Of a stretch of DNA of 64,000 nucleotides, positions 9,730-61,772 are shown one piece after another. The notes beneath the pieces are model-generated. The model searched no databases and was not told the origin of the DNA. It saw only the letters and a list, made by a program, of their open reading frames with translations. How positions within the stretch are numbered: position 1 is the stretch's first letter; each line of letters starts with the position of its first letter. The DNA is taken from NCBI GenBank assembly GCA_038961845.1, contig CP152408.1, forward strand, positions 682,001 to 746,000, written 5' to 3'. This DNA comes from Xylophilus sp. GW821-FHT01B05 (GTDB taxonomy: Bacteria > Pseudomonadota > Gammaproteobacteria > Burkholderiales > Burkholderiaceae_C). The translations under genes were made by a program, and so were the position numbers.

Positions 9730-10776
9730 TTACGGCGGCGCCATGCTGCGCAACTGCTGGTCGACGTAGTCGCCGTTCTGCTGGGTGATGCGCATGCGCA
9801 CCGGCAAAAAGCCCAGCGAAGGCGCAAACCAGACCTGCACCCGCGTGTCGTAGTCCTTGCGCGGGGCGCGCTCCAGGCGCACGGTGGCCAGCGGGCCGAC
9901 CGGCAACTGCAGCTCTTCGTGCCCGGCGACGGTGAACAGCCAGTCTTCGGCGTCGCGCGTGCCCACGGTTTGCACGCTGATGCTGGCGCCCTCGGGGTAG
10001 CGCGCCGGGTCGCCGGCCAGCAGCGCGCCCAACTGCACGAACACGCTCAGCCGGTCTTGCGCGCCCGGGGCCAGCGTGGCCTGGGGCGCGTTCGAGCTGA
10101 ACACGATGCGGCCCTGGTCGTAGTCGAAGTGCGCGGCCTGCTCCGCGCTGCGTGGTTTGTCGCCAAAACGCAACGGTTGCAGGCCTTGGGGCCCAAGCCG
10201 GCCGGTGCTGGTCTGGGTGCGCGAGCCAACCAGGAAGGCGCTCACCTCCATCAGCAGCTTGTAGTCCTGCCCGTCCTGCTGCCAGTGCAGTTCTGACTTG
10301 GCGTGCCAGGTGAAGCCTTTGGCAAAGCCTTCGGCGTCATAGAACATGTTGACCGGCGCCGGCAGGCCCACGGGCGGTGGCGGCGGCGCGGGCGGCGGTG
10401 GCGCTGGTGCAGGTGGCTCGGCCGGTGGTTCGGGCGCTGCAGGCGGCGAGGGCGGCGCGACCGGCCCGATCACCGCGCCAGCTATTGAATCTGTAGCTAT
10501 AGGCCCAGGCGTGTCCTGGGCTTGGGCCATATTTTTATCAGATTCTGGCAGCGGCACCGAGGCCGGCTTGGACGCCGGGCGCGGGCGGGGCTTGGGGGGC
10601 GCGGCAGGGGGCGGCGCAGGCGGCGCGGGCGGCAGCACCATGCGCGCCTCGAAGGGCGTGGATTTTTCCTCGTCCGGCGCATCCGGCAGGCCCGGCGGCA
10701 GCCAGTGCAGTGCCACCAGGTGCACCAGCAGCACGGCGGCGGTAAGGGCGACCAGCGGCCGGGTCGGGATGCCCAT
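9730..10776 (-). CDS. DUF3108 protein with proline-rich TonB-like linker
   Basis: A 348-residue protein: one N-terminal membrane anchor (residues about 8-28), a long Pro/Ala-rich linker (about 45-140) interrupted by a non-proline stretch at 77-99, then a C-terminal DUF3108 domain beginning near VNMFYDAEGFAKG. The overall plan resembles a TonB-like periplasm-spanning protein, but the C-terminal domain is not TonB. DUF3108 proteins are envelope proteins of unknown role. The linker interruption is encoded by a palindromic element seen elsewhere between genes. Confidence 0.75.
   Translation of the reverse strand: MGIPTRPLVALTAAVLLVHLVALHWLPPGLPDAPDEEKSTPFEARMVLPPAPPAPPPAAPPKPRPRPASKPASVPLPESDKNMAQAQDTPGPIATDSIAGAVIGPVAPPSPPAAPEPPAEPPAPAPPPPAPPPPPVGLPAPVNMFYDAEGFAKGFTWHAKSELHWQQDGQDYKLLMEVSAFLVGSRTQTSTGRLGPQGLQPLRFGDKPRSAEQAAHFDYDQGRIVFSSNAPQATLAPGAQDRLSVFVQLGALLAGDPARYPEGASISVQTVGTRDAEDWLFTVAGHEELQLPVGPLATVRLERAPRKDYDTRVQVWFAPSLGFLPVRMRITQQNGDYVDQQLRSMAPP
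10481..10546. repeat. Palindromic element inside the DUF3108 gene
   Basis: Plus-strand features are TAGCTATAGGCCCAGG, a short spacer GTGT, CCTGGGCTTGGGCC and ATATTTTTAT. These match, in reverse, the intergenic copies at 41888 and 61711. On the coding strand it is in forward orientation, contains no stop codon, and encodes residues about 77-99, replacing the surrounding proline-rich composition. Confidence 0.75.
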
Positions 10777-10791
10777 TGCTTGGTCCTGCCC

Positions 10792-11643
10792 TCAGGCGCC
10801 CGCAAAGCCCAGGTCGCGCGACAGCTGCTGCGCCGCCGCGTGCAGCGGCGCCTCTACTGCGCCGCCCCACTGCGGGTCGAAGGTGGCGGCCGAGCCCAGC
10901 GTGACCATGCCCAGCGCGATGTGGCCGTCGGCATCGAACACCGGCGCGCAAAAGCCGACGATGCCAGGCAGCAGGGTATCGACCACGCGCGCCGTGCCGC
11001 GCTCGCGCACCTCGGCAAACAGGCGCGCCGCATCGGCGGCGGTGGCCGGCACGTCGGTACGGCCCAGCTTGCGGGCGTGGGCGATCTCGTCTTTCAGCAG
11101 CGGCGCAATCGCCTCGGGCGGCAGCCAGGCGGCAAAGCAGCGGCCGGTGGCCGAGGACAGCAGCGGCATGACGTCACCCAGGCGCAGGTTGGCGGTGACC
11201 GATTGCGGGGATTCTTCCCAGTGCACGATGGTCGGGCCGCGGTTGCCCCAGACGGCAATCGCCAGCGTGTGGCCGATGGCTTCCATCAGCGCCGGGATGC
11301 GCTCGCGCGCCAGGCGCACCGGGTCCAGCCGCGACAGCGCCGCCAGCCCCAGCCGCAGCGCGGCCGGGCCCAGGTCGTAGCGCGAGGTGCGCAGGTCTTG
11401 CGCCACCAGGCCCAGGCGCTGGAAGCTCACCAGGTAGCGGTGTGCCTTGGCTGCGCTCATGCCGGCTTCAGCGGCAGCGTCGCGCAGCATCAGCGGGCCG
11501 CGTGCGCGCGCCAGCGCATCCAGCAGCGCAAAGCCGACTTCCACTGACTGGATGCCTGCGCGCGCTTTGCCGGAATCGTCGTCGGGCTCGTCGCCGACGC
11601 TATGGTTAAAGGGTTCGCCCGGGGCTTCCAGCCCCTGCTGCAT
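10792..11643 (-). CDS. IclR-family transcriptional regulator
   Basis: A 283-residue regulator with an N-terminal winged helix (GIQSVEVGFALLDALARARG, then AAEAGMSAAKAHRYLVSFQR) and a C-terminal IclR effector domain with GRCFAAWLP and a HIALGMVTLG core. It is divergent from the FAH-family/Bug gene pair, which it most likely controls. An upstream GTG at 11649 is an alternative start with GGGGA five bases away. Confidence 0.85.
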   Translation of the reverse strand: MQQGLEAPGEPFNHSVGDEPDDDSGKARAGIQSVEVGFALLDALARARGPLMLRDAAAEAGMSAAKAHRYLVSFQRLGLVAQDLRTSRYDLGPAALRLGLAALSRLDPVRLARERIPALMEAIGHTLAIAVWGNRGPTIVHWEESPQSVTANLRLGDVMPLLSSATGRCFAAWLPPEAIAPLLKDEIAHARKLGRTDVPATAADAARLFAEVRERGTARVVDTLLPGIVGFCAPVFDADGHIALGMVTLGSAATFDPQWGGAVEAPLHAAAQQLSRDLGFAGA

Positions 11644-11671
11644 TGCCACTAGAATCCCCGATCATTTCTTT

Positions 11672-11691
11672 TAGTTAAACCAGTTTAACTA
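11672..11691. promoter_or_regulatory. Candidate IclR operator
   Basis: A 20-bp sequence with 9-bp perfect arms, TAGTTAAAC-CA-GTTTAACTA, in the AT-rich 100-bp divergent region between the IclR gene and the FAH-family gene. Symmetry, size and position fit an IclR-type operator controlling both promoters. Confidence 0.6.
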
Positions 11692-11743
11692 TACGTAATC
11701 GGACCGTGGTCCGAAACTGCCCACCACACGGGGACTCCGCTCA

Positions 11744-12769
11744 ATGAAACTCGCCACCTACAAGGACGGCTCGCGTGACGGCCAACTGGTCGTCGTCTCC
11801 CGCGATTTGGCTACGGCCCATTATGCGACCGGCACTGCGACCCGCATGCAGCAGGTGCTGGACGACTGGAGCTTCCTGTCGTCCCAGTTGCAGGACCTGT
11901 ATGACGACCTGAACGCGGGCCGCGCGCGGCATGCCTTCCCGTTCGATCCGGCGCAGTGCATGGCGCCGCTGCCGCGCGCCTACCAGTGGGCCGACGGCTC
12001 GGCCTACCTGAACCATGTGGAGCTGGTGCGCAAGGCGCGCAACTCCGAGGTGCCGGCCAGCTTCTACGAAGACCCGTTGATGTACCAGGGCGGCAGCGAT
12101 GATTTCATTGGCCCGCGCGACGACGTGCTGGTGCCCTCCGAAGACTTCGGTATCGACTTCGAAGCCGAGATCGCCGTGATCACCGGCGACGTGCCCATGG
12201 GCTGCACGCCCGAGCAGGCGCTGGACGGCATCCGCCTGGTGATGATTGCCAACGATGTCAGCCTGCGCAACCTGATCCCGGCTGAGCTGGCCAAGGGCTT
12301 TGGCTTCTTCCAGAGTAAGCCGGCGACGGCCTTCAGCCCGGTGGCGGTGACGCTGGACGAGCTGGGCGACGCCTGGGACCACGGCCGCCTGAACCTGGTG
12401 TTGCAAAGCACCTGGAACGGCCGCAAGGTCGGCATGTGCGACGCCGGGCCGGACATGACCTTCCACTTCGGCCAGCTGATTGCCCACATCGGCAAGACGC
12501 GCAATGTCCGCGCCGGCAGCATCGTCGGCTCGGGCACGGTCAGCAACAAGGGCGTCGAGAAAGACGGCCGTACCGACTGGCCCAAGGGCTACAGCTGCAT
12601 CGCCGAGAAGCGCTGCATCGAAACCATCCAGGACGGCGCGCCCAAGACCGCCTTCATGAAGTTTGGAGACACCATCCGCATCGAGATGAAGAACCGCAAC
12701 GGGCAGAGCATCTTTGGTGCGATTGACCAAAAAATTGCCCCGCCGGGCAAGGCCATCGCCACGGTCTGA
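11744..12769 (+). CDS. Fumarylacetoacetate hydrolase family protein
   Basis: A 341-residue enzyme of the FAH superfamily. It has an N-terminal FAH_N-like region and a catalytic domain with DFEAEIAVITGDVP (acidic metal ligands), MIANDVSLRN, SIVGSGTVSNKG and GDTIRIEM. FAH-family enzymes cleave C-C bonds or hydrolyse/decarboxylate oxo-acids at the end of aromatic-ring degradation. True fumarylacetoacetase is longer, so the exact substrate is open. It is followed 59 bp later by a Bug receptor and preceded by a divergent IclR gene, suggesting an inducible aromatic-acid pathway. Confidence 0.85.
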   Translation: MKLATYKDGSRDGQLVVVSRDLATAHYATGTATRMQQVLDDWSFLSSQLQDLYDDLNAGRARHAFPFDPAQCMAPLPRAYQWADGSAYLNHVELVRKARNSEVPASFYEDPLMYQGGSDDFIGPRDDVLVPSEDFGIDFEAEIAVITGDVPMGCTPEQALDGIRLVMIANDVSLRNLIPAELAKGFGFFQSKPATAFSPVAVTLDELGDAWDHGRLNLVLQSTWNGRKVGMCDAGPDMTFHFGQLIAHIGKTRNVRAGSIVGSGTVSNKGVEKDGRTDWPKGYSCIAEKRCIETIQDGAPKTAFMKFGDTIRIEMKNRNGQSIFGAIDQKIAPPGKAIATV

Positions 12770-12828
12770 GCATCCGGGCCAGGGTTCCCGCGATAACCCC
12801 GCACACAACACTAAAAGGAGACATTCGC

Positions 12829-13791
12829 ATGCATCGCAGAACCGTTCTTGGCGCGCTCGGCGCCGCCGCTGTGGCCAGCCCAGCGTTTGCCCAGTCATCC
12901 GACGCCGTGATCCGCTGGGTCGTGCCCTATCCGGCGGGCGGCGGCACCGACGTGCTGGCGCGCACCGTGGCCGAGGCCATGCGCGGCACGCTCGGCCAGC
13001 AACTGGTGATCGACAACCGCCCGGGCGCCTCCACCAACATCGGCGCGCAGGCTGTGGCCACGGCGCGGCCCGATGGCCTGACCATCATGTCGGCCGACAA
13101 CGCCTTGCTGGCCTACAACGAGCACCTGTTCCACAAGCTGCCCTTCAACCCGGACAGCAGCTTCAGCTACGTCGGCGGCATCAGCCGTTTCCCGCTGGCG
13201 CTAGTGGTGACGCCGGGCTTCGAGGTGAAGACGCTGAAGGACTTCATCGCCTATGCCAAGGCCAATCCGGGCAAGCTCAACTACGCCTCGCCCGGCAATG
13301 GCTCGCCGCACCACCTGGCGATGGAAATGTTCAAGAGCCGCACCGGCACCTTCATCACCCACATTCCCTACCGTGGCGCTGCGCCGGCCATGGCCGACGT
13401 AATGGGCGGGCAGGTGCCCTGCATGTTCCTGGACCTGGCCGCCGGCCTGCCGGTGATCCAGTCGGGCAAGGTGCGCGCGCTGGCGATTGGCTCGGCCCGC
13501 CGTGCCGCGTTGCTGCCCGACGTGCCAACCCTGGCCGAGGCCGGTGTGCCCAATTCAGAGGTGTTCGCCTTCCAGGGCATCCTCGGCCCGGCGGGCCTGC
13601 CGCAGCCGATGGTGCAGCGACTCAACGGCGCGCTGAACCAGGCACTGGCCAGCGCCGCCGTGCAAAAGCGCATGGCTGATTTCGGCATGGAGGCGATGCC
13701 CGGTACGCCCGAGCAGTTCCACACTTTCGCGCGGGCTGAAGCCCATCGCTGGGGCCCGATCATCCAGGCCACGGGCGTGAAGTTGGATTAA
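12829..13791 (+). CDS. Tripartite tricarboxylate transporter receptor (Bug family)
   Basis: A 320-residue periplasmic binding protein with a twin-arginine-like signal peptide (MHRRTVLGALGAAAVASPAFA) and the family motifs RWVVPYPAGGGTDVLART and NYASPGNGSPHHLAMEMF. It has an AAAAGGAGA ribosome binding site. It is the second orphan Bug gene of the window, co-directional with the FAH-family gene and probably in the same transcript. The ligand is probably an aromatic or dicarboxylic acid, by context only. Confidence 0.85.
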   Translation: MHRRTVLGALGAAAVASPAFAQSSDAVIRWVVPYPAGGGTDVLARTVAEAMRGTLGQQLVIDNRPGASTNIGAQAVATARPDGLTIMSADNALLAYNEHLFHKLPFNPDSSFSYVGGISRFPLALVVTPGFEVKTLKDFIAYAKANPGKLNYASPGNGSPHHLAMEMFKSRTGTFITHIPYRGAAPAMADVMGGQVPCMFLDLAAGLPVIQSGKVRALAIGSARRAALLPDVPTLAEAGVPNSEVFAFQGILGPAGLPQPMVQRLNGALNQALASAAVQKRMADFGMEAMPGTPEQFHTFARAEAHRWGPIIQATGVKLD

Positions 13792-13810
13792 TCACAGCCT
13801 ATAACGGCAC

Positions 13811-13924
13811 AGAAGGCCGCGGAGCAGGCCATGCGCGAACCGCCGCGGAACTGGCTTTGCCAGGCCGCTGGCGGTGCCCCCTTGAGGGGGGAGGCGAAGA
13901 CGCGAAGCGCGTAGCCTGGGGGGG
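13811..13924 (-). repeat. 3'-end hairpin element, copy 1
   Basis: Minus-strand reading: CCCCCAGGCTACGCGCTTCGCG, then a CCCCCT/AGGGGG hairpin, then a GCCAAAGCCAG-type hairpin and a GGCCTGCTCCGCGGCC block. It begins about 11 bp after the stop codon of the MORN/YwqK-like gene and occupies nearly all of the 144-bp gap to the convergent Bug gene. Confidence 0.8.
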
Positions 13925-13935
13925 AGCCAAGCTCT

Positions 13936-16233: not shown

Positions 16234-16243
16234 AAGGGCCGCC

Positions 16244-18873: not shown

Positions 18874-18954
18874 ACGCACGCCGTTGGAGTAAGCTGACCG
18901 CCGATGCCCCGCGCCCTCGCACGGGGCACGCGGTTCATCTTTTCTGGAGCGGTC

Positions 18955-19857
18955 ATGAGCGATTCCCCGCCTTTCGGTTTCGGCAATTTCGTGCCCGGGT
19001 TCGACTTCCTGCAAACGCTGGTGCAGTCCGCCGCCAAGGGCGCGGCGCCGCAGGCGAGCCAGGGGCCGGACTGGTCGAGCTGGATCGCGCCGACCATCAA
19101 GGTCGAAGACCTGGACAAGCGCATCAACGAGCTGAAGACCGTGCAGTTCTGGCTGGAGCAGAACGCCCGCGCGCTGGCCGCCACCATCCAGGCGTTGGAG
19201 GTGCAGAAGATGTCGCTGGCCACGCTGCGCAGCATGAATGTGCAGATGGGTGATTTGGCCGCGGCCTTCAACTTCCCAGGCGCGGCACCGGCTGCAACTG
19301 CTGCGCCGGCCGCAGCGCCCGCCGGCCCCTACGACGACATGTACACCGCGCGCCCAGCCGCCGTCGAGGCGCCAGCGCCCGAGCCCGCTGCGCCACCAGC
19401 CGCAGAAGAGGCGCCGGCCGCAGCAAAGCCCGGCACGGCCGACCCGCTGCAGTGGTGGAACGCGCTCACCGACCAGTTCCAGCAGATCGCCGCGAGCGCC
19501 ATGCAGGACGCCGCGCGCCAGGCCAAGGACGCGCCCCTTGCGCAGATGGCTGACGCCACGCGTCAAGCTTTCGATGTGGCAGGGCGCATGGCTGCGGATG
19601 CTATGAAAACCGCAGCTGATAGCCAAGGTGCAGCAAGGGCTGAAGCCAAAAAACCCTCTAAAAAAACCAGCGCCGCGCCTGCGGCCAAAGCCGCCGCCAA
19701 GCCGGCGCGCCCGGCCGCCTCCAAGGGCTGGGCCGCCGCCGCCGCGCCCCGCGCGGCGGCACCACCGCCCGCAACCGCTGCGCCGGCCAAGCGCCCGCGT
19801 GCATCCACTGCTGCGGCAGCGCCGGCTTCGCCCACGCGCCGTGGCCGCAGCCGATGA
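18955..19857 (+). CDS. phaM: PhaM-type PHB granule/DNA-binding protein
   Basis: A 300-residue protein whose first 110 residues are strongly PhaM-like: FGNFVPGFDFLQTL, then SWIAPTIKVEDLDKRINELK and TVQFWLEQNARALAATIQAL. PhaM activates PHB synthase and attaches granules to the nucleoid through an Ala/Lys/Pro-rich C-terminal tail, which is present here and ends SPTRRGRSR. GGAG precedes ATG 18955. Residues about 215-234 are encoded by a palindromic element. It overlaps the FIST gene by 4 bp (ATGA). Confidence 0.8.
   Translation: MSDSPPFGFGNFVPGFDFLQTLVQSAAKGAAPQASQGPDWSSWIAPTIKVEDLDKRINELKTVQFWLEQNARALAATIQALEVQKMSLATLRSMNVQMGDLAAAFNFPGAAPAATAAPAAAPAGPYDDMYTARPAAVEAPAPEPAAPPAAEEAPAAAKPGTADPLQWWNALTDQFQQIAASAMQDAARQAKDAPLAQMADATRQAFDVAGRMAADAMKTAADSQGAARAEAKKPSKKTSAAPAAKAAAKPARPAASKGWAAAAAPRAAAPPPATAAPAKRPRASTAAAAPASPTRRGRSR
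19599..19656. repeat. Palindromic element inside phaM
   Basis: The sequence CTATGAAAACCGCAGCTGATAGCC, interrupted here after GAAAACC for comparison, aligns with the reverse complement of the intergenic copy at 61711. It continues AAGGTGCAGCAAGGGCTGAA and ends GCCAAAAAA. It is read in frame as part of the flexible C-terminal tail of PhaM, in reverse orientation relative to the recG copy. Confidence 0.7.
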
Positions 19858-21131: not shown

Positions 21132-21146
21132 CCGGCTGCTGTCGGT

Positions 21147-21206
21147 TTACTACAAAATGTATAGCTATAAGCCGGCGTGTACATTGGGCTAGAGCCACTT
21201 TTGACC
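21147..21206. repeat. Palindromic element, intergenic (degenerate arms)
   Basis: Between the convergent FIST and dioxygenase genes. TGTATAGCTATAAGCC and TTGGGCTAGAGCCACTTTTG match the outer parts of the family in reverse orientation; the central CCAGG arms have decayed. Confidence 0.65.
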
Positions 21207-21211
21207 AATAT

Positions 21212-22129
21212 TCACATCTTCCCGTAGGTGGAATCAAAGCGCTGCTGCAGATAGGCCTGCGCCGTCACCGGCGCATAGCGCGGCGCCTCGCCCGCCGGCA
21301 CGCAGGACGGGATGGCCTGCACCAGCGCATCCGGGTTCGGGTCAAGGAAGAAGGCGATCGAATAGCGCTCGTGCGGCGGCCGCGCCACGCGGTGCGGGGT
21401 CGACACATAGACATCATTGGTCCAGCGCATCAGGCAGTCGCCGATGTTGCAGATGAAGGCGCCGGGCAGCGTGGGCGCGTCCAGCCACTGGCCGTCGCGG
21501 CGGCGCACCTGCAGGCCGGCCACGCCATCCGTCGCCAGCAAGGTCACGTTGCCGTAATCGGTATGCGTGCCGGCGCCGGCCTGGCCGGGCGGCGCGCCGT
21601 CCAGCAGCGTGGGGTAGCGCAGCAGGCGCAGCGTGGCCTGCGGGCGATCGACCTTGTCGGCGAAGAAATCCTCGGCCAGGCCCAGGTCACTGGCAAAGGC
21701 CGTGTGCAGGCGCTGGCCCACGGACAGCACCGCGTCGAAGTAAGCCTGCAGGCGCGTGCTCCAGCCCTCGATCGGCGGCCAGATATTGGGCGGCCGCGTG
21801 GCGCCGTCGGTCCAGATCAGGTTGAAGGCCTCTTTCAGATCGGCGGCGGTCTTCTCGTCCAGCGCCTCCACGCCCAGGCCCACATAGCCACGGTTGTGGC
21901 CGTGCCGGGCAATGGCCAGTTCGCGCTTGGCCTCGGCCGGCAGCGCAAAGACTTCGTGCGCGGCGGCAAAGGTGTCGGCCACCAGTGCGGCGGGCACGCC
22001 GTGGCCGGTGATCAGGAAGAAGCCGGTGCCGCGGCAGGCGGCGCCAATCTGGGCCGCCACCTGTTGCCGCGCGGCGGCGTCAGGGGAGGCGAGGGCGGTG
22101 ATGTCGATGACGGGGATGTCGTGCTGCAT
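21212..22129 (-). CDS. Isopenicillin-N-synthase-like 2-oxoglutarate/Fe(II) dioxygenase
   Basis: A 305-residue cytoplasmic oxygenase with N-terminal DIOX_N (IPVIDITALASPDAAARQQV) and C-terminal 2OG-Fe(II) domain. Fe ligands are visible as HTD in GAGTHTDYGNVTLL and the distal His in YVSTPHRV. RYS is the 2-oxoglutarate-binding R-x-S. The substrate is unknown. It is the last gene downstream of an ABC permease in a minus-strand cluster; 21 bp separate them. Confidence 0.82.
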   Translation of the reverse strand: MQHDIPVIDITALASPDAAARQQVAAQIGAACRGTGFFLITGHGVPAALVADTFAAAHEVFALPAEAKRELAIARHGHNRGYVGLGVEALDEKTAADLKEAFNLIWTDGATRPPNIWPPIEGWSTRLQAYFDAVLSVGQRLHTAFASDLGLAEDFFADKVDRPQATLRLLRYPTLLDGAPPGQAGAGTHTDYGNVTLLATDGVAGLQVRRRDGQWLDAPTLPGAFICNIGDCLMRWTNDVYVSTPHRVARPPHERYSIAFFLDPNPDALVQAIPSCVPAGEAPRYAPVTAQAYLQQRFDSTYGKM

Positions 22130-24756: not shown

Positions 24757-24842
24757 CGCAGAAGGCCGTGGAACAGGCCACGCCGCTGGATGTGTCCCCT
24801 GCAAGGGGGTTGGCGAAGACGCGCAGCGCGTAGCCTGGGGGT
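24757..24842 (-). repeat. 3'-end hairpin element, copy 2
   Basis: Starts about 9 bp after the stop of the arylsulfotransferase-like gene. Minus-strand reading is CCCCCAGGCTACGCGC, then CCCCCTTGCAGGGG. The central GCCGG hairpin seen in other copies is deleted here. It fills much of the 173-bp gap before the binding-protein gene; the remaining gap (24678-24756) probably holds the ribosome binding site and promoter of that gene. Confidence 0.8.
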
Positions 24843-24850
24843 GTTTCACT

Positions 24851-25966
24851 TCAGCGCGCGAGCCAGGGCAACTGGTGGTCGAAGTAGCGGAAGGTCTGGA
24901 ACACGCTGTTGAGGCGGCCGGGGCCGGTCTTGCGCGCGGCCGCGTCGGGGTATTCGTCAAACCAGGGAATCACGTACTCCCACACCACCTCGCCGGCGGG
25001 TGTCACCTCGAACAGCCGGCCCGTGGCAGATTCCGTGATGTGGGTGTTGCCGTTGGGCAGGCGCTGGGCATTGCCCATGAAGGCGGTGTAGAAGGAATTG
25101 ACCATCTCGTCGGCATAGGACCACACGACTTCGTTCGTAGCCGGGTCGATCTCAACCACGCGCGAGAAGGCCACATGGCTGCCGCTGCGGAAGTTGCCGT
25201 TGTCGAAGGCCAGGATGCGGCCGTTGTCCAGCGGCACCGGGGCGTGCTGGTGCGACACCACGCTGGGCGGTATGTGCAGGCGCACGCTGCCGCTGGCCTT
25301 GTCCACACCGATGATGCCGCTGGTGGTGCGCAGGCTCATCAGCACCGTGCCGTCGGCCATCACGCCCAGCCCGTTGACCAGCGGCCAGTGGTAGCGGCCA
25401 AAGCCGGGGTGGATGGGGAAGTCCTCCGGCGCCAGGTGCTCCCAGGCCTTCCACTCCCAAACCAGTTCCCCGGCGCGGTTCACCTCGCGGATCACGTCGC
25501 CGACCATCGTCTCGCCGTCGCCATGCGCGGTGCCGCCGGGCACGCGGGCGGCAAAGCCCTCTGGCACGGGTGCGCAGGCGGCGTACAGCAGGTTGCCGTT
25601 GGGCAGCCACTGGGCGTCGTGGTGGTGGGACGGGTCCTCGTAGTGCCAGACCACCTCGCCTGCGGGCGTGACCTCGGAGAAATCGCCGCCGTGCCACATC
25701 GACCAGGCCGGGTAGCGGTCGGGCGAATCGGCGTGGTTGCCGTTGTAGCCCAGGTTGCCGTTGGGCAGGATCACGGCGTGGCGGCCGGCGCGCAGCGGCA
25801 TCTTCCACTCGTGCGCCACGGCGCCGTGGATGTCCACCAGGTAGACCTGGCCGCGCGCGGTCTGCGGTGCGATCAGGGTGTAGCCGCCGGCCGACAGCGC
25901 CGGGTCATGGGCGATCAGCCCCACGCCGCGGCGGCGGATGGTGATCTGGTCGACGGTGCTGGGCAT
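24851..25966 (-). CDS. Arylsulfotransferase (ASST)-like protein
   Basis: A 371-residue beta-propeller protein with recurring VTPAGEVVW-type blades, HHHDAQWLPNGN and RLPNGNTHITESATGRLFEV. These are typical of the ASST families. PAPS-independent ASST transfers sulfate between phenols, but many members are uncharacterised and this one lacks an obvious signal peptide. The ATG at 25966 is preceded by AAGGA. It heads a minus-strand cluster with the ABC transporter and dioxygenase; the divergent LysR gene probably regulates it. Confidence 0.7.
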   Translation of the reverse strand: MPSTVDQITIRRRGVGLIAHDPALSAGGYTLIAPQTARGQVYLVDIHGAVAHEWKMPLRAGRHAVILPNGNLGYNGNHADSPDRYPAWSMWHGGDFSEVTPAGEVVWHYEDPSHHHDAQWLPNGNLLYAACAPVPEGFAARVPGGTAHGDGETMVGDVIREVNRAGELVWEWKAWEHLAPEDFPIHPGFGRYHWPLVNGLGVMADGTVLMSLRTTSGIIGVDKASGSVRLHIPPSVVSHQHAPVPLDNGRILAFDNGNFRSGSHVAFSRVVEIDPATNEVVWSYADEMVNSFYTAFMGNAQRLPNGNTHITESATGRLFEVTPAGEVVWEYVIPWFDEYPDAAARKTGPGRLNSVFQTFRYFDHQLPWLAR

Positions 25967-28407: not shown

Positions 28408-28498
28408 GGCGAAATCCTTTCAGGGTTTCTGCAATGGGTGCGCGCGCAAGGTTGCGGGAATAGATGAAGCAACCGGACGCACGCATCCCGTTGCCGCT

Positions 28499-28726
28499 CC
28501 CCCTGTCCTTGGTACCTGAGAGATTCACCCTGCAACGGTTGCGGGGCTTGCTCCTTCGGTGCGTGGCGGGCGGCCACCATGAGGCATGGGGCGCGCTGCA
28601 ACGTCTCTCCAGACGGCGTTTGACTGATGTTGCAGTACCAGGCCGTTTATGGGACGGCCCACCTGAGCGTTCATGGGAGTTTGCGCCTTCGGTGGAATGG
28701 CGTGGCCGCCATTCACTCTCCTGCAG
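28499..28726 (-). promoter_or_regulatory. Tandem glycine riboswitch upstream of dadA
   Basis: Two glycine aptamers lie in series on the minus strand. Aptamer 1 (about 28726-28625) has GGAGAGTGAATGG, CACCGAAGGCGCAAACTCC and GAACGCTCAGGT. Aptamer 2 (about 28615-28499) has TGGAGAGACG, CACCGAAGGAGCAAGCCCC, TCTCTCAGGTACC and AAGGACAGGGGG. These are the conserved glycine-riboswitch boxes. The remaining leader (28408-28498) has an imperfect GCAAC/GTTGC hairpin but no U-run, so control may be at translation. Confidence 0.9.
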
Positions 28727-28740
28727 GGGCCGATTCTACG

Positions 28741-30676: not shown

Positions 30677-32623
30677 ATGCCCGACACGCTTCCCCCGCCC
30701 GCCGAGCCGTCGGCGCACCCGAACCAGTTCGCCTTGCTGCAGCAGCGCCGCTTCGCGCCCTTCTTCTGGACCCAGTTCGCCGGTGCCGCGAACGACAACC
30801 TGTTCAAGTTCGCGTTCACGGTGCTGGTGACCTACCAGTTGAGCGTGGCCTGGATGCCGCCGTCCATGGCGGGCCTGGTGATCGGGGCGCTGTTCATCCT
30901 GCCCTTTCTGCTGTTCTCGGCCACCTCGGGCCAGCTTACGGACAAGTACGACAAGACGCGCATGATCCGCTTCGTCAAGAACCTGGAGATCGGCATCATG
31001 CTGCTCGCCGCCGCCGGGTTCCTGCTGGGCAATGTGGTCGTGCTGCTGGCCTGCACCTTTCTGATGGGCCTGCATTCCACGCTGTTTGGCCCGGTGAAGT
31101 TCGCCTACCTGCCGCAGGTGCTGAACGAGCGCGAGCTGACCGGTGGCACCGGCATGGTGGAGATGGGGACCTTCATCGCCATCCTGCTCGGCAACGTGGC
31201 CGGCGGCCTGCTGGTGGCGGTGCCGCAGGTCGGCCATGCCTGGGTGGCCGGCAGCTGCGTGGCGCTGGCGCTGGTCGGGCGCGCAGTGGCGCAGGCGATT
31301 CCACCGGCACCAGCCACCGATCCTCAGCTGAAGATCAACTGGAACCCGTTCACCGAAACCTGGCGCAACCTGCAGCTCGCGCGCAGCAGCCCGGTGGTGT
31401 TCCGCTCGCTGCTGGGCATCAGCTGGATGTGGTTCTTTGGCGCGGTGTTTTTGAGCCAGTTCCCGAGCTTTGCCAAAGAGGTGCTGCACGGCGATGAGCA
31501 CGTGGCCTCGCTGCTGCTGGTGGTGTTTTCCATTGGCATTGGCGTGGGCTCGCTGTTGTGCGAAGTGCTGTCACGCAGCCAGGTGGAGATCGGCCTGGTG
31601 CCGGTGGGCACCATAGGCATGAGCGTGTTTGCGGTGGACCTGTACTTTGCCTCGCGTGGCCTGCCGGCGGTTGCGGAGAGGGGGGTGGGCGACTTTCTTG
31701 CGCGGCCCGCGCACTGGCGCGTGATGGCCGACCTGGCGCTGCTGAGCCTGTTCGCCGGCCTGTACAGCGTGCCCATGTATGCGCTGATCCAACTGCGCAG
31801 CCGGCCAACGCATCGCGCGCGCATCATCGCCGCCAACAACATCCTCAATGCGCTGTTCATGATCGCAAGCTCAGTCATCGCCGGTGGCCTGCTGGCCGCG
31901 GGCTTCAGCGTGCCGCAGATCTTCTTGTTCACCGGGCTGGCCAATGCGCTGGTGGCGGCCTATATCTTTCTGCTGGTGCCCGAGTACCTGCTGCGCTTCA
32001 TTGCCTGGGTGGCCACGCGCTTTGTCTACCGCTTTCGCATTCGCGGCGAAGCGCAGATCCCGCAGGAAGGGCCGGCGGTGCTGGTGTGCAACCACGTGAG
32101 CTTTGTCGATCCGGTGCTGATGATGGCCGCCAGCCCGCGCCCGATCCGCTTCGTGATGGACCACCGCATCTTCGCCACGCCGGTGCTGGGCGGCTTGTTC
32201 CGGCTGGCCAAGGCGATCCCGATCGCGCCGCAGAAAGAAGACGCCGCCATCTACGCGGCGGCCTTCGAGCGTGTGGCGCAGGTGCTGCGCGAGGGCGAAC
32301 TGGTGGCGATCTTCCCGGAGGGCAGCATCACCCAGGACGGTGAACTGCAGCCTTTCAAGGCCGGCATCATGAAGATCCTGGAGCAGGCCAAGGCCGATGG
32401 CCTGCAGGTGCCGGTGGTGCCGATGGCGCTCAGCAACCTGTGGGGCTCGTTCTTTAGCCGCATCGAGCTGCGCGGCGACAAGCGCGTGGCCATGGTGAAA
32501 CCGTTCCGCCGCGGTTTCTTCAACCGCGTGGGGCTGGATGTGGGCGCGCCGGTGCCGGCGGCCCAGGTCACGCCGGACGGCCTGCACAGCCGCGTCTCCG
32601 GGCTGCTGGCCGCAGTGGCCTGA
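30677..32623 (+). CDS. MFS transporter fused to PlsC-type acyltransferase
   Basis: A 648-residue fusion. Residues 1-430 form an LplT-like major-facilitator domain (FFWTQFAGAANDNLFKFAF, FGPVKFAYLPQVL). Residues about 440-640 form a 1-acylglycerol-phosphate acyltransferase domain with NHVSFVDPVL (HX4D) and FPEGSITQDG. Similar fusions flip lysophospholipids across the inner membrane and re-acylate them, without the acyl-ACP synthetase domain of Aas. ATG at 30677 has GGAG six bases upstream. It converges with the M20 deacylase gene (19 bp between stops). Confidence 0.85.
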   Translation: MPDTLPPPAEPSAHPNQFALLQQRRFAPFFWTQFAGAANDNLFKFAFTVLVTYQLSVAWMPPSMAGLVIGALFILPFLLFSATSGQLTDKYDKTRMIRFVKNLEIGIMLLAAAGFLLGNVVVLLACTFLMGLHSTLFGPVKFAYLPQVLNERELTGGTGMVEMGTFIAILLGNVAGGLLVAVPQVGHAWVAGSCVALALVGRAVAQAIPPAPATDPQLKINWNPFTETWRNLQLARSSPVVFRSLLGISWMWFFGAVFLSQFPSFAKEVLHGDEHVASLLLVVFSIGIGVGSLLCEVLSRSQVEIGLVPVGTIGMSVFAVDLYFASRGLPAVAERGVGDFLARPAHWRVMADLALLSLFAGLYSVPMYALIQLRSRPTHRARIIAANNILNALFMIASSVIAGGLLAAGFSVPQIFLFTGLANALVAAYIFLLVPEYLLRFIAWVATRFVYRFRIRGEAQIPQEGPAVLVCNHVSFVDPVLMMAASPRPIRFVMDHRIFATPVLGGLFRLAKAIPIAPQKEDAAIYAAAFERVAQVLREGELVAIFPEGSITQDGELQPFKAGIMKILEQAKADGLQVPVVPMALSNLWGSFFSRIELRGDKRVAMVKPFRRGFFNRVGLDVGAPVPAAQVTPDGLHSRVSGLLAAVA

Positions 32624-40446: not shown

Positions 40447-41888
40447 GCGGGCGCGCCTTGCCCCGCAGCATCTCGCGCCGCAGCCTGCTGGGCGCGGCAC
40501 TGGCTGGAGCGGGTTTGGCTGTCGTTGCGCCGCGGGCACTGTGCAGTCCTGCGCAGGATGGTGCCGCGCTACAGGTGGGCAATATCACCGGCCTGCATAC
40601 GGTGAAGGTGGCGCGCATCGAAACACCGCGCAGCACAGCGGATGTGCGGCGCGCACTGCTGCACTGGCCGGGGCGCATTGCTGTTGGCGGGGGGCGCTAC
40701 AGCATGGGCGGCCAGACAGCGGTGGCCGGCGGGCTGCACCTGGACATGCGCGGGATGAACCAGTTGGTCTGGCTGCGCCCGCAGGAGCAAACCGTGCGGG
40801 TGCAGGCCGGCATGCGCTGGCGCGACCTGCTGGACCACATCGACGGCCACGGCCTGGCGGTGCGCACCATGCAGAGCTATTCCAACTTCACCGTGGGTGG
40901 CGCGGTCTCGGTCAACGCGCATGGGCGCTACATGGGCCACGGCCCGGTCGGGCATTCGGTGCGCGCGCTGCAGTTGGTGCTGGCCAATGGCTGCGTGGTG
41001 GAGGCGAGCCGGCAGCGCCACCCGGCGCTGTTCAGTGCTGCGCTGGGCGGCTATGGCGGCGTGGGCGTGGTCACCGAGGTCGAGCTGCAACTGGACCGCA
41101 ACAGCCTGCTGGAGCGCCACATCGCCGAGATGCCGCTGGCCGACTATCCCGCGTGGTTTGCGCGCAGCGTGCGGCCGGACCCCGCTTGCGTGCTGCACAA
41201 CGCCGATCTGCTGCCGCCGCATTTCGACCGGGCCACGGCCATCAGTTGGCGCACCACGCAGCGGCAGGCCACCTCGACAGAGCGGCTGATCCCGCGCGGC
41301 CGCAGCTACCCGCTGGAGCGCGCCGCCATCTGGGCCGCCACGCTGCCGGGCGGTGACGCGCTGCAGCGCGAGGTATTGCGCCCGGCATTGCAGCGCCGGC
41401 CTGCGGTGGTCTGGCGCAACCACCAGGCCAGCCTGGACCTGCGCATGCTGGAGCCGGCAGACCGCCGCAGCGCGACCTATGCGCTGCAGGAGTACTTTGT
41501 GCCCGTGCCGCAATTGCTGCCATTTGCGGCACAGATGGCGCACGTGCTGCAGGCGCATGGCGCGCAGGTGCTCAACGTGTCCATCCGGCACTCGCCGGCC
41601 GATGCCGACGGGCTGCTGGCGTGGGCGCGCGAAGAGGTGTTCTCGCTGGTGATCTACTACCGGCAGGGCACTGGTGCGCAGGCGCAGGACGCGGTCGGGG
41701 TGTGGACACGGGCGCTGATCGATGCCGCACTGGCCTGCGGCGGCAGCTACTACCTGCCCTACCAACTGCATGCCACGCGTGCGCAGTTCGAGGCGGCCTA
41801 CCCGCAGGCCGACGCCTTTCGCGCGGTGAAGCGCGAGCTAGACCCGCAGGGGCGGCTGAGCAATACGCTGTGGGATCGGTATATTTGA
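40443..41888 (+). CDS. FAD-binding oxidoreductase with Tat signal (aldonolactone-oxidase-like)
   Basis: A 481-residue secreted flavoprotein. It begins with a twin-arginine signal (SRRSLLGAALAGAGLAVVAP), followed by a PCMH-type FAD domain with GGRYSMGGQT and SNFTVGGAVSVNAHGRYMGH. The C-terminal end DPQGRLSNTLWDRY is typical of D-arabinono-1,4-lactone oxidase-like enzymes. It oxidises a sugar lactone or related substrate in the periplasm; the exact substrate is unknown. GTG start overlaps the upstream stop codon (GTGA), indicating translational coupling. Confidence 0.75.
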   Translation: MSGRALPRSISRRSLLGAALAGAGLAVVAPRALCSPAQDGAALQVGNITGLHTVKVARIETPRSTADVRRALLHWPGRIAVGGGRYSMGGQTAVAGGLHLDMRGMNQLVWLRPQEQTVRVQAGMRWRDLLDHIDGHGLAVRTMQSYSNFTVGGAVSVNAHGRYMGHGPVGHSVRALQLVLANGCVVEASRQRHPALFSAALGGYGGVGVVTEVELQLDRNSLLERHIAEMPLADYPAWFARSVRPDPACVLHNADLLPPHFDRATAISWRTTQRQATSTERLIPRGRSYPLERAAIWAATLPGGDALQREVLRPALQRRPAVVWRNHQASLDLRMLEPADRRSATYALQEYFVPVPQLLPFAAQMAHVLQAHGAQVLNVSIRHSPADADGLLAWAREEVFSLVIYYRQGTGAQAQDAVGVWTRALIDAALACGGSYYLPYQLHATRAQFEAAYPQADAFRAVKRELDPQGRLSNTLWDRYI

Positions 41889-41944
41889 ACAAAATAGGCC
41901 TCTAGCCCAGGTGTGGCCTGGGCTATTAGCTATCAAAAAAGTAG
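41888..41944. repeat. Palindromic element, intergenic (well-preserved copy)
   Basis: AATAGGCCTCT, then perfect arms AGCCCAGG-TGTGG-CCTGGGCT (41904-41924), then ATTAGCTATCAAAAAA. It begins at the stop codon of the flavin oxidase gene and ends shortly before the ribosome binding site of the zinc-ribbon gene. Confidence 0.85.
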
Positions 41945-41963
41945 TACACAAGAAGGAGTGCAT

Positions 41964-53230: not shown

Positions 53231-55408
<2,178 letters not shown>

Positions 55409-55414
55409 GTCATG

Positions 55415-55477
55415 TTTAAGGAAAAAGTGGCTGAAACCCAGGTGGTACCTGGGCTATTAGCTCTACTTTTTGTAGCT
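55415..55477. repeat. Palindromic element, between recG and oxyR
   Basis: GGAAAAAGTGGCTGAA, then ACCCAGG-TGGTA-CCTGGGCT, then ATTAGCTCTACTTTTTGTAG. It begins 6 bp after the recG stop. The 3' side of the gap (55478-55518) carries the oxyR leader. Confidence 0.8.
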
Positions 55478-55518
55478 GCCACGCACGCAGGCGCGCGCTG
55501 CAGGACAATCGCCCCACC

Positions 55519-58186: not shown

Positions 58187-58267
58187 GGTTTTTGTTGGCG
58201 CCAGCCTGTTTGGATGCTTGACGGGTGGCTCGGGGCACAATCGCGGGTCGTTTTCAATTCTTGCACC

Positions 58268-58290
58268 CGGGGCCCGCGCCCCGTCTTCTC
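58268..58290 (+). terminator. Terminator-like hairpin before ubiA
   Basis: CGGGGC-CCGC-GCCCCG followed by TCTTCTC, 81 bp after the dps stop and 5 bp before the ubiA ATG. It may end the dps transcript or structure the ubiA leader. Confidence 0.35.
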
Positions 58291-58295
58291 CCCCC

Positions 58296-59249
58296 ATGAC
58301 CGCAATCGTGCCGCAGCGCAGCCGCCTCGGCCTCTACCTTGACCTGATCCGCTGGGACCGGCCTGCCGGCTGGCTGCTGCTGCTGTGGCCCACGCTGTCG
58401 GCGCTGTGGATGGCCAAGCGCGGCTTCCCGGGCTGGCATTTGCTGACCGTGTTCGTGCTGGGCACCTTCCTCATGCGCAGCGCGGGCTGCTGCATCAATG
58501 ACGTGGCCGACCAGGAGTTCGACCGCCACGTCAAACGCACGGCGCAGCGCCCGGTCACCAGCGGCGCGGTGTCGGTGCGCGAGGCGCTGGTGCTGGCGGC
58601 GGTACTGGTGCTGGCGGCCTTCGGGCTGGTGCTGACCACCAATGCGCCGACGGTGGTGTGGTCTTTTGCGGCGCTGGCAATCACGCTGGTCTATCCCTAT
58701 GCCAAGCGCCACGTGGCCATGCCGCAGGCGGTGCTGGGCGTGGCCTTCAGCGCCGGCATCCCGATGGCGTTCACGGCGATCCAGGGCAGTGAATCGTGGT
58801 TGTTCACCGCCATTCCGGGCGACGACGGCATGTTGCTGGCAGCACTTGAAGGCAGCGTGCCGGCGCTGGGCTGGTGGCTGGTGCTGGGCAACTTGTTCTG
58901 GGTGCTGGCCTACGACACCGAATACGCCATGGTCGACCGCGACGACGACCTGCGGATCGGCATCCGCACCTCGGCCATCACCCTGGGCCGCTTCGATGTG
59001 CCGGCCATCGTGCTGTTCTACCTGCTGTTTTTGGGCATCTGGACGGTGGCGCTGCAGCCCTATGCGCTGGGGCCGATGTTCCATGCGGCCATTGGGATCG
59101 CGCTGGTGCAGGTGTTCTGGCACTGGAGCCTGATCCGCCGCCGCACGCGCGAGGGCTGCTTTCATGCGTTCCGCGTGAACCACTGGCTGGGGCTGACGGT
59201 GTTTGCGGGGATTGCGGCCGGCTTTGCATTGCAGAAGTCGGCGGCTTAG
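58296..59249 (+). CDS. ubiA: 4-hydroxybenzoate octaprenyltransferase
   Basis: A 317-residue polytopic membrane prenyltransferase of ubiquinone biosynthesis. The two Asp-rich motifs are visible: [19 protein letters not shown] (NDxxDxxxD) and [14 protein letters not shown]. About eight or nine hydrophobic helices are present. ATG 58296 gives the conserved start [20 protein letters not shown]. It converges with pyrB (46 bp). Confidence 0.93.
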
Positions 59250-59295
59250 CGCCGACTTTTGCTCAGCCAGCTCCGTTCTCCCTGAAGCGGGGTTC

Positions 59296-60588
59296 TCAGT
59301 CCAAGCCATCAAAGACGGCGTCATCCGGCCCGATGTGCGAGGGCGAACGCCAACCCGCATCGCGCATCGAGCGCGCCACCTGCTTCTCTACCCCCAGCAG
59401 CACCGCGAACAGCGCCATGCGCACGGGAATGCCGTTGTCGGTCTGGCGGAAGATGGCCAGGCGCGGGTCGTGGTTGAGGTCGGTGCTCAGGTCGTTGGCG
59501 CCGGGGCGGCCGTCGCGCGGCAGCGGGTGCATCAGGATGGTGTCGGGCTTGCAGACCGCGTCCACCAGCGCCTTGCGCACCTGGAACTCGGGCGTGTAGC
59601 CCTCGATCTCTTCGCCGGCAAAGCGCTCTTTCTGGATGCGCGTGGCGTAAACCACATCGGCGCCGCGCAGGCCTTCTTCCAATGACTGGGTCTGCTCGAT
59701 CACATGGCCCTGGCGCGCCACCAGCTCCAGCAGGTAGTCGGGCATTTCCAGCGAGGGCGGCGCCACCAGTGTGAACTTGAGCCCGCGGTACAGCGCCAGC
59801 AGCCGGATCAGCGAATGCACGGTGCGGCCGTATTTCAGGTCGCCGACGATGGCCACGTGCGCGCCATCCACCAGCTTGCCCAGGCGCGAGAACTCGCGCT
59901 GGATGGTGTACAGATCCAGGATGGCCTGGCTCGGGTGCTCGCCCGGGCCGTCGCCGGCGTTGATCACCGGGATGTTGGTGGCGCGCGCAAATTCGGCGAC
60001 CGAGCCTTGCTCTGGGTGGCGCACCACCAGCGCATCGACATAGCCGCTCATGACGCGGCTGGTGTCGTAGATCGACTCGCCCTTGGCCATGGACGAGAAG
60101 GTGAAGCCCGTGGTGTCGCAAACCGTGCCGCCCAGGCGGCAGAAGGCCGCGCCAAAGCTCACGCGGGTGCGCGTGCTGGCCTCGAAGAACAGGCTGCCCA
60201 GCACCGCGCCCTCCAGCACGCGCGACACCTTCTGGCGCCGGGCAATGGGCTGCATGACGTCGGCCACATGAAACAGGTCTTCCAGGCTGTCGCGGTCAAA
60301 CTGCGCCACCGACAGCAGGTGCGGCCGGCCTTCGGCCGAGATGCGCTGGGCCAGCGAGCGCCCGTCCGCGCCGCTGGCCGAGCCGGCCGCGCCGCGCGCC
60401 TCGTGCACCAGGATTTCGGAGACGAACTTCTCGACCATCTCCGGCATGGCGCGCGACTCGTTCGAGTCGGCCGGCAGCAGCCAGGTGTCGAGTGCGCGGC
60501 GCCGCACGCCCAGGCGGTCAGAGAAGGCGTCGCGGGTGAGGTTGAGGCGACGCATGGCGTCGCGCAGAAAGTCTTGTTGGCTGCTCAT
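59296..60588 (-). CDS. pyrB: Aspartate carbamoyltransferase with N-terminal HTH-like extension
   Basis: A 430-residue enzyme, longer than the usual approximately 310 of PyrB. The first 60 residues resemble an XRE-type helix-turn-helix (LNLTRDAFSDRLGVRRRALD). Residues about 95-400 are the ATCase catalytic domains, with the carbamoyl-phosphate motif FFEASTRTRVSFGAAF and HPLPRDGRPGANDL. It makes carbamoyl-aspartate in pyrimidine synthesis. No pyrI is adjacent. ATG 60588 was chosen; a palindrome lies 45 bp upstream. Confidence 0.88.
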   Translation of the reverse strand: MSSQQDFLRDAMRRLNLTRDAFSDRLGVRRRALDTWLLPADSNESRAMPEMVEKFVSEILVHEARGAAGSASGADGRSLAQRISAEGRPHLLSVAQFDRDSLEDLFHVADVMQPIARRQKVSRVLEGAVLGSLFFEASTRTRVSFGAAFCRLGGTVCDTTGFTFSSMAKGESIYDTSRVMSGYVDALVVRHPEQGSVAEFARATNIPVINAGDGPGEHPSQAILDLYTIQREFSRLGKLVDGAHVAIVGDLKYGRTVHSLIRLLALYRGLKFTLVAPPSLEMPDYLLELVARQGHVIEQTQSLEEGLRGADVVYATRIQKERFAGEEIEGYTPEFQVRKALVDAVCKPDTILMHPLPRDGRPGANDLSTDLNHDPRLAIFRQTDNGIPVRMALFAVLLGVEKQVARSMRDAGWRSPSHIGPDDAVFDGLD

Positions 60589-60632
60589 GGCGGCGAAATA
60601 TACGCCATGAGTTTTGGTTTTGCGCCTGAATT

Positions 60633-60645
60633 TACGCAGTGCGTA
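60633..60645. promoter_or_regulatory. Palindrome upstream of pyrB
   Basis: TACGCA-G-TGCGTA is a perfect 13-bp palindrome 45 bp before the pyrB start codon. It could be an operator, possibly for the HTH-like extension of PyrB itself; this is inference. Confidence 0.4.
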
Positions 60646-60689
60646 CATTTTGGGGCGCTCAATCGATGCGCCTTAGGCCGTGTCAGGAA

Positions 60690-60774
60690 CACCGCGGAAC
60701 CGGCTTTGCCGGGCCGCTGGTGTTGCCCCCTGCAAGGGGGTTGGCGAAGACACGTAGTGCGTAGCCTGGGGGTG
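60690..60774 (-). repeat. 3'-end hairpin element, copy 3
   Basis: Begins 3-5 bp after the proC stop codon. Minus-strand reading is CCCCCAGGCTACGCACTACG, then CCCCCTTGCAGGGGG, then CCGGCAAAGCCGG. It separates proC from pyrB. Confidence 0.85.
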
Positions 60775-60777
60775 TGC

Positions 60778-61626
60778 CTAGATCTTCCCGAACTCGTCGC
60801 CGAGTTCTGCTGCGCGCGCGCGTGCTGCTTCCATCGCCCCGACAAACGCCGCCTTCACCCCCGCCGCCTCCAGCGCCGTCAGCGCCGCATAGGTGGTGCC
60901 GCCCTTGGAGGTGACGCGCTCGCGCAGCACGGCCGGCGGCTCGCTCGACTGGGCGGCCAGCGTGGTGGCGCCGCCAAAGGTGGCAATGGCCAGTTGCTGC
61001 GCCTGCGCGGCCGACAGGCCCATGCCGGTGCCGGCTTGCACCATGGCCTCGATGAAATAAAACACATAGGCCGGGCCCGAGCCCGACAGCGCGGTGACCG
61101 CGTCCAACTGCGCTTCTGCGTCCAGCCACAGCACCTGGCCGGTGGGGGCCAGCACTTCATCCACCAGGGCGTGGTCGGCGGCGGTGACGGCGCTGCGTGC
61201 AAACAGGCCGGTCATGCCCTGGCCCACCAGCGCGGGCGTGTTGGGCATGGCGCGCACGATGCGCTGGCTGCCCAGCCAGCCGGCGATGCTGTCGCTGCGG
61301 ATGCCGGCGGCCACGCTCAGGTGCAGCGCCTGGGCGGCAAAGGGCGCCACGGCCTGCGCCGCTTCGCGGAAGACCTGCGGTTTCACCGCCCAGACCACCA
61401 GCGCGCAGTCGCTCAGGGACGCATCGGCGGTGGCCTGCGCGCTGACGCCGTGCTGCGCCAGCAGTTGCGCGCGGGTGGCCTCGAACGGTTCGACCACGCG
61501 GATGCGCGCCGCCGGCAAGCCCTGGCGCAGCAGCCCGCCGATCAGCGCGCTGGCCATGTTGCCGCCGCCGATGAAGGCGATGGATTGGTCGTGGAGGGCA
61601 GCGCTGGATGCGGTGGCAGTCGTCAT
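60778..61626 (-). CDS. proC: Pyrroline-5-carboxylate reductase
   Basis: A 282-residue NAD(P)H-dependent reductase that makes proline from pyrroline-5-carboxylate. The nucleotide-binding site is IAFIGGGNMASALIGGLL, and the C-terminal domain has the family signature region DAVTALSGSGPAYVFYFIEA and RERVTSKGGTTYAAL. ATG 61626 follows the usual start. Normal length. Confidence 0.95.
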   Translation of the reverse strand: MTTATASSAALHDQSIAFIGGGNMASALIGGLLRQGLPAARIRVVEPFEATRAQLLAQHGVSAQATADASLSDCALVVWAVKPQVFREAAQAVAPFAAQALHLSVAAGIRSDSIAGWLGSQRIVRAMPNTPALVGQGMTGLFARSAVTAADHALVDEVLAPTGQVLWLDAEAQLDAVTALSGSGPAYVFYFIEAMVQAGTGMGLSAAQAQQLAIATFGGATTLAAQSSEPPAVLRERVTSKGGTTYAALTALEAAGVKAAFVGAMEAARARAAELGDEFGKI

Positions 61627-61710
61627 GGTGCAGGGGCCTGTGGCAATGAAGAAGAGCAGGGCGGGCATTGTCGCGCGCCCGCGCCACGGCCTTTGCCGCC
61701 ATCAACGGAA

Positions 61711-61772
61711 ATTTAAAGAAAAAGTGGCTCTAGCCCAGGTGCAGCCTGGGCTATTAGCTATGGTTTTTGAAT
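61711..61772. repeat. Palindromic element, intergenic (best-preserved copy)
   Basis: GAAAAAGTGGCTCT, then perfect arms AGCCCAGG-TGCAG-CCTGGGCT, then ATTAGCTATGGTTTTTGAA. It lies in the 308-bp gap between proC and glpK, next to a copy of the second repeat family. The first part of the gap (61627-61710) presumably holds the proC promoter; nothing else is evident. Confidence 0.85.

Follow-up and report, generated by a model that had tools for sequence, protein, structure and literature searches.

How has one palindromic element come to occupy both intergenic gaps and protein-coding genes of a bacterial genome, and why do related species carry a different hairpin at the same places? The question is raised by a stretch of 64,000 nucleotides from Xylophilus sp. 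GW821-FHT01B05 (contig CP152408.1, positions 682,001 to 746,000; hereafter the window), which holds eight copies of such an element, four between genes and four inside open reading frames (ORFs). The original prediction likened the family to the Rickettsia palindromic elements, which are palindromic and lie inside genes in an open frame. We propose instead that it is a REP-like family linked to a chromosomal gene for a REP-associated tyrosine transposase (RAYT) and that its stems have been rewritten in place in Xylophilus, a reading to which we give a probability of roughly 0.56. Rewriting in place, and not copying alone, is suggested by repeats with other stems that stand at the same places in related species.

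The repeat unit and its distribution

The pattern AGCCCAGG-N5-CCTGGGCT, with up to three mismatches, was found at eight places in the window against 0.91 expected, and none of 100 shuffles reached eight. Across the whole genome (G000, 5.83 Mb) the pattern with up to two mismatches occurs at 314 places and its reversed control at none, a genome-wide excess of the kind that the original prediction had anticipated. A covariance model (R1) built from 30 copies of this genome with exact stems recovered seven of the eight predicted copies at E <=1e-4, missing the one at 19599, and a profile of the two arms only, with the stem omitted (the arms profile, trained on 76 copies of this genome), returned exactly these eight at >=18 bits, with scores of 26 to 74 bits. 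The literal match at 25747 was scored by neither model, and the copy predicted at 21147 lies outside the eight literal matches. In 1.246 Mb of the genome the arms profile gave 127 matches at >=20 bits, the halves of doublets being counted separately, and none in the reversed sequence, where no match reached 16 bits. The window shuffles and the reversed-pattern and reversed-sequence controls reject a chance origin. The eight copies are real and belong to one dispersed family, found in both orientations, both in intergenic gaps and inside genes with the frame left open, as had been predicted.

Applied to the whole genome, R1 matched all 150 candidates scored (of 6932). In an even sample made up of the window and 59 evenly spaced 20-kb stretches (1.244 Mb), it gave 116 matches at E <=0.5, and the 92 at E <=0.01 were retained; the E-values are rough, and both models were trained on copies of this genome. 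Extrapolation gives a genome total of about 430 (R1) to 590 (arms profile) copies.

The unit has a fixed length of 65-68 nt, exactly 65 nt in 91 of the 92 retained copies. A hairpin of 21 nt (8+5+8) is flanked on one side by a T-box, an A-box and GCCTCT and on the other by TAGCTATCnATTTnrTAG. In 91 copies, the column statistics climb steeply near column 0 and drop near column 68, and the flanks resemble ordinary genome. The consensus amounts to 65 positions at 0.86 bits each, and the unit is AT-rich, with a GC content of 0.35-0.52 in the retained copies. The best score for a target duplication was 2.96, against shuffled maxima of 2.51-3.95, and no terminal inverted repeat rose above the shuffles; a DDE-type miniature inverted-repeat transposable element with target duplication is therefore unsupported. 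The genome also holds the stem AGCCCTTG/CAAGGGCT and hybrid stems. Six of the seven outward-facing pairs in the even sample are inverted doublets with a fixed span of 104 nt (Table 1), which account for a minority of copies.

With our own uncurated gene caller (90.5% coding), 58 of the retained copies were placed between genes, 15 across gene ends and 19 in called ORFs, of which some are short and questionable. The 73 copies outside ORFs comprise 34 in convergent, 35 in tandem and 4 in divergent gaps, which make up 16%, 62% and 22% of the intergenic bases, respectively, and most lie within ~20 bp of a stop codon. This placement, behind stop codons and seldom in divergent gaps, is consistent with mRNA 3'-end hairpins that the host selected as terminators or stabilisers and that were never mobile. 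However, the consensus has no T-run directly behind the hairpin, the arms are fixed, copies also lie in genes, some places are empty in relatives, and the family is linked to a RAYT gene (see below); we regard such an origin as quite improbable.

Orientation follows replication in this genome: 115 of the 150 scored copies point with the fork (permutation p 0.003), which is not explained by gene strand; the genes themselves are balanced on replication direction (601:574). The same bias was seen in the even sample (60 of 92, p 0.005) and among arm matches (83 of 136, p 0.013), and it fades with score, from 27:10 at 65-90 bits through 16:9 at 50-65 bits to 17:13 at 30-50 bits. No bias was found among the matches listed for two other genomes, whose replication origins are uncertain, G104 (54 of 82 matches, p 0.44) and G126 (96 of 125, p 0.51), and replication-directed orientation is therefore unsupported as a general trait.

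Stem dialects at orthologous places

A search with CTCTAGC and AGCTATCNATTT at a free spacing of 14 to 28 gave matches in 22 of 250 genomes of the bacterial family and none with the reversed control, and every listed match had the same total length of 40 nt. The stems differ among these genomes (e.g., AGCGCTTG/CAAGCGCT). Among 30 family copies, 71% of the stem cells are paired, versus 23-40% for slid versions, and 24 stem cells change on both sides, versus 11 in shuffles, three stem columns being fixed by the search pattern. A model built from family copies (R2) gave matches in 35 of 150 genomes and 31 of 141 genera, under strict filters and with 34 candidates scored per genome. Conserved arms around a lineage-specific stem are the architecture of the element in these genomes of the bacterial family that includes Xylophilus and Acidovorax.

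Xylophilus itself shows three stem dialects. The stem AGCCCAGG/CCTGGGCT was closest in 14 of 19 copies of G000 and 11 of 13 copies of its relative G004, AGCCGGCG/CGCCGGCT in 19 of 22 copies of G003 and 16 of 19 of G001, and TGCGCAGG/CCTGCGCA in two of three copies of G006, in which four further copies were seen. The arms profile found 62 to 108 copies per Mb in stretches of these five genomes and no copy in 20 kb each of G002 and G005. R1, which is tuned to its own stem and undercounts others, gave at E <=1e-4 at least 150 matches in G004, 19 in G003, 12 in G006, 6 in G001 and none in G002 or G005; calls of absence for the element come from models that detect too few copies with other stems.

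The comparison of dialects rests on few orthologous places. In all species pairs with an element of at least 12 bits in both at one place, the orientation is the same. At 7 of the 11 places compared across stem groups, each species has the stem of its own lineage: the 61708 junction, a 359-aa gene, a dnaX-like gene, an addA-like gene (weak in G001), two places in G003 and G004, and one in G003 and G006. The 61708 junction reads CCCAGG in G000 and G004, GCCGGC in G003 and G001, and GCGCAGG in G006, while no element was found there in G002 and G005. At many places the element is present in one species only.

That stems follow species at these seven old places could also result from ectopic gene conversion among hundreds of copies, which would homogenise the hairpin in each genome and make selection for protein binding unnecessary. 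The loop TGCAG, present in 10 of 78 copies of G000 versus 1.2 expected from the columns and carried by the 61708 junction, may be a sign of such shared templates. However, the other old places compared have loops different from TGCAG, and copy-specific letters are retained in the arms, whose variable columns are 73% and 79% identical in two species pairs, which indicates that whole hairpin blocks were not simply overwritten recently. Gene conversion as the whole explanation is possible, though rather unlikely. Hypermutable loops had also been considered: 14 of 35 loop letters are kept between G000 and G004 and 39 of 60 between G001 and G003, and this idea was dropped because the retention in the latter pair is near the neutral level.

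The uptake sequences of Neisseriaceae show species dialects, and by analogy a genome might converge on a motif through biased recombination of incoming DNA. Such an uptake-sequence-like motif would fit the dialects, the coding copies without length change and the copies in recG-, addA/recB-, dnaX- and truB-like genes. Known uptake motifs are, however, far shorter than the 65 positions of this consensus, few arms-profile scores in G000 lie between background and full copies, and the family is linked to a RAYT gene; an origin of this kind seems quite improbable to us.

Copies inside genes

Read from their translations, genes with copies resemble dnaX, an addA/recB-type helicase, truB, lpd, cysN and recG; the identity of truB was checked by search, that of recG by orthologues and that of the DUF3108 gene by homologue search, the rest being assigned by translation only. 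Of 76 strong copies, 32 leave frame 0 and 31 leave frame 2 open on the same strand and 46 leave frame 0 open on the opposite strand, versus just 1 to 6 for each of the remaining three frames. The open frames of the in-gene copies, noted in the original prediction, are confirmed, but they are the frames that the element itself most often leaves stop-free.

A perfect element is present in truB of G004, none in that of G002 and a weak trace (8.5-8.9 bits) in those of G003 and G001, all of the same length; by eye, truB of G006 appears to carry its own stem type. Over this stretch, two solved TruB structures (chains 1r3f and 1k8w) are shorter by 4 residues instead of 22. The copy in recG covers a variable linker together with conserved coding sequence, with no full-length insertion, and recG of G002 and G005 is 15-16 nt shorter, not 65. 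Its right half encodes a motif common to orthologues without the palindrome, so that for this copy the outcome which the original prediction itself had named as a refutation is observed. Because orthologues of truB and recG that lack a clear element are nearly equal in length, these two copies are not clean insertions; the element overlays native coding sequence and adds no 22-residue insert.

At the place of the element, the dnaX-like gene of G004 lacks the element yet is equal in length, and a clean 69-nt insertion was rejected because the length difference lies elsewhere in the linker. The DUF3108 copy sits in a variable Pro/Ala linker with a similar peptide in the nearest homologue, and this linker, like that of the dnaX-like gene, varies too much to tell insertion from overlay. 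At 19597 our own gene caller favoured an overlapping ORF on the opposite strand. In G005 the site behind the recG stop spans 11 bp and in G001 34 bp; in G004 it is occupied by a different repeat. Selfish insertions contributing an in-frame peptide, as the original prediction had it, would fit the in-frame copies within genes and the intergenic places that are empty in relatives. Against this stand the nearly equal lengths of the truB and recG orthologues, the genus-wide occurrence of the other in-gene places and the RAYT link, and we consider such insertions improbable.

The RAYT gene and known repeat systems

With PF01797, matches were obtained in 11 of 16 element-rich genomes, G000 not among them. 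The apparent lack of a RAYT in G000 was a false negative, since a search with an alignment of ten RAYTs found a diverged RAYT there (Table 1); this alignment matched in 36 of 36 genomes searched, with a single match in 29. All four RAYTs tested match NCBIfam REP_Tyr_transpos, one of them above the curated cut-off. Among the 11 RAYT loci read in element-rich genomes, three short ORFs (162-182 aa) being left out, seven (G004, G044, G077, G104, G125, G126 and G021) have an element of 15 to 49 bits lying, in the same orientation, across the RAYT stop codon; its local stem can be recognised in G004 and G125 at least, and G016 has an element near the RAYT start. A weak element was seen on the RAYT stop of G000 (16 bits) and of G010 and G028 (14 bits). 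By eye, at least 10 of 38 loci, including two from element-negative genomes, show GCTAT and an AT-rich stretch running into TGTCCC behind the RAYT.

The catalytic tyrosine is absent in all seven Xylophilus RAYTs, none of which retains both histidines; over all RAYTs read it is present in 24 of 38 and absent in 14. The Xylophilus reading frame is intact, and dN/dS was 0.33 for G000/G004, 0.19 for G001/G003, 0.20 for G002/G005, 0.42 for G000/G006 and 0.34 for G000/G001, alongside 0.26 and 0.28 for two RAYT pairs with the tyrosine (a third such pair was saturated). By these ratios, the Xylophilus RAYT is kept under purifying selection though it lacks the catalytic tyrosine. The comparison of RAYTs suggests a single loss of the tyrosine that preceded the split of the genus, and on this view the dialect changes would be later. 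An intact but tyrosine-less RAYT, together with own-lineage stems at old places, suggests that the stems changed in concert without active transposition.

In the REP-like reading, the units would have spread earlier as single-stranded hairpins through an active RAYT and would have persisted chiefly after stop codons and, within genes, at positions that leave the reading frame open. The Xylophilus RAYT may now be a hairpin-binding protein, and a shifting RAYT preference, or gene conversion between copies, would rewrite the stems in place. A more specific form, in which a RAYT that lost its catalytic residues is a putative hairpin-binding chromosomal protein whose preference is tracked by hundreds of hairpins, some in conserved genes, so that dialects would arise without transposition, is speculative and, as we see it, unlikely.

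Several observations weigh against the REP-like reading. A RAYT is present in 20 of 20 genomes where the models found no element, including the tyrosine-less RAYTs of G002 and G005, and the link between RAYT and elements is therefore not a strict one. The RAYT loci of G090, G133 and G141 show no element at 12 bits, and none was found at the RAYT stop of G001 and G003 (-14 and -11 bits) despite the many elements in these genomes; the RAYT-associated element may go back to a single ancestral copy passed down to several genera. A GTAG/CGTC tag at the hairpin foot is absent in 91 copies, RTAG standing at columns 61-64 and the stem ending at column 44. Four of the 11 cross-dialect places (recG, 21146, L209:7087 and L347:14242) show no clear stem or a contrary one; in recG the G001 element is weak and not of the GCCGGC type, and the G000 copy at 21146 has a hybrid stem, one half of which is CGCCGGCT.

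The family bears on the questions of why genomes retain RAYTs and how REP elements benefit or burden their hosts. If the REP-like reading is true, a genus with a dead-looking but kept RAYT and species-specific targets would allow binding to be separated from transposition, and the family would offer a clear case for the concerted evolution of dispersed bacterial repeats, partly in coding sequence.

A search of open-licence papers gave no description of the unit, in line with the original prediction, which named none for Comamonadaceae. Its closest known system is REP/RAYT, and it is best filed beside this as a variant, not as a Rickettsia-type palindromic element. In the excerpts of the cited papers on which this comparison draws, REPs lie near stops, in convergent gaps and inside genes including truB and recB (PMC3733652), different REP classes adjoin orthologous RAYTs (PMC3686654), and TnpAREP groups co-evolve with their REPs (PMC8266576). 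The present family shares with REP/RAYT systems (PMC2817692, PMC3686654, PMC8266576, PMC3733652) the high-copy hairpins near stops and in convergent gaps, in some genomes a unit beside the RAYT gene, unit classes that differ between orthologous RAYTs, inverted doublets (REPIN, BIME) and copies in truB, recB and repair genes. It departs from them in having no foot tag, in its fixed unit with long AT-rich arms, in its stem dialects at orthologous dispersed places and in the tyrosine-less RAYT of Xylophilus; no description of such RAYTs was found in excerpts of the open-licence literature. PMC3733652 describes RAYTs with GGGGWSAS repeats at their flanks, and there tyrosine and HUH are conserved in all those aligned. 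Like the TIRYT/TIRtron of that paper, the family has a RAYT-type gene beside a terminal repeat, and TGTCCCC at the G000 RAYT fits GGGGWSAS on the other strand, but both tyrosine and HUH are lost in Xylophilus RAYTs. With the Rickettsia palindromic elements (cited in PMC3733652) it has in common the palindrome, the in-gene position and the open frame; the features that set it apart from them are another host group, no 22-residue addition in truB or recG, and the RAYT link. BRE of Betaproteobacteria (75-91 bp, 69% GC in Bordetella, often tandem; PMC3110155) is likewise a dispersed repeat reported in Comamonadaceae with some copies in genes, but by its description it is GC-rich, unlike the AT-rich unit found here.

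Table 1. Positions of element copies, doublets and other features (numbered along the window unless a stretch or the genome is named; CM, covariance model R1).
Feature	Position	Strand	Details
Element in 505-aa ORF 1504-3021 (-), against gene	2906..2974	+	arms 28.1 bits, CM 35.2 bits; 2 stem mismatches
Element in DUF3108 gene 9730-10776 (-), with gene	10478..10546	-	arms 53.2 bits, CM 51.2 bits; 1 stem mismatch
Weak element, stem AGCCCTTG / CCTTGGCT, in ORF 18904-19857 (+), against gene	19597..19665	-	arms 26.1 bits; missed by R1; 3 stem mismatches
Intergenic element between convergent genes, hybrid stem AGCCCAAT / CGCCGGCT	21146..21214	-	arms 73.2 bits, CM 45.2 bits
Intergenic element, exact stem	41880..41948	+	arms 73.5 bits, CM 81.4 bits; 0 stem mismatches
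Element in recG (53231-55408 +), with gene	53820..53888	+	arms 38.2 bits, CM 35.6 bits; 2 stem mismatches
Intergenic element just behind recG stop	55411..55479	+	arms 53.9 bits, CM 51.3 bits; 1 stem mismatch
Intergenic element at junction with elements in relatives	61708..61776	+	arms 65.5 bits, CM 69.3 bits; 0 stem mismatches
Inverted doublets, 104-nt span	L205:6917-7020, L209:7049-7152, L210:6790-6893, L188:13532-13635, L236:16396-16499, L232:22-125		element right arm at both ends, facing outward
RAYT of G000	genome 4687021-4687704		
GC-rich repeat, ~90 bp	60683-60773, 61854-61940, 24761-24847, 13815-13935		
Glycine riboswitch aptamers, two adjacent	28493-28733	-	Rfam RF00504
Bcj11 match	31365-31486	+	RF02835

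The GC-rich repeat of ~90 bp in the window may, from its description, be the BRE of Hot et al. 2011. A 20-kb query with its first copy gave dozens of matches in Xylophilus relatives, most of them listed for G001, G003 and G004 and few for G002, G005 and G006. The window also holds two adjacent glycine riboswitch aptamers and, inside a predicted gene, a match to the Burkholderia small RNA Bcj11.

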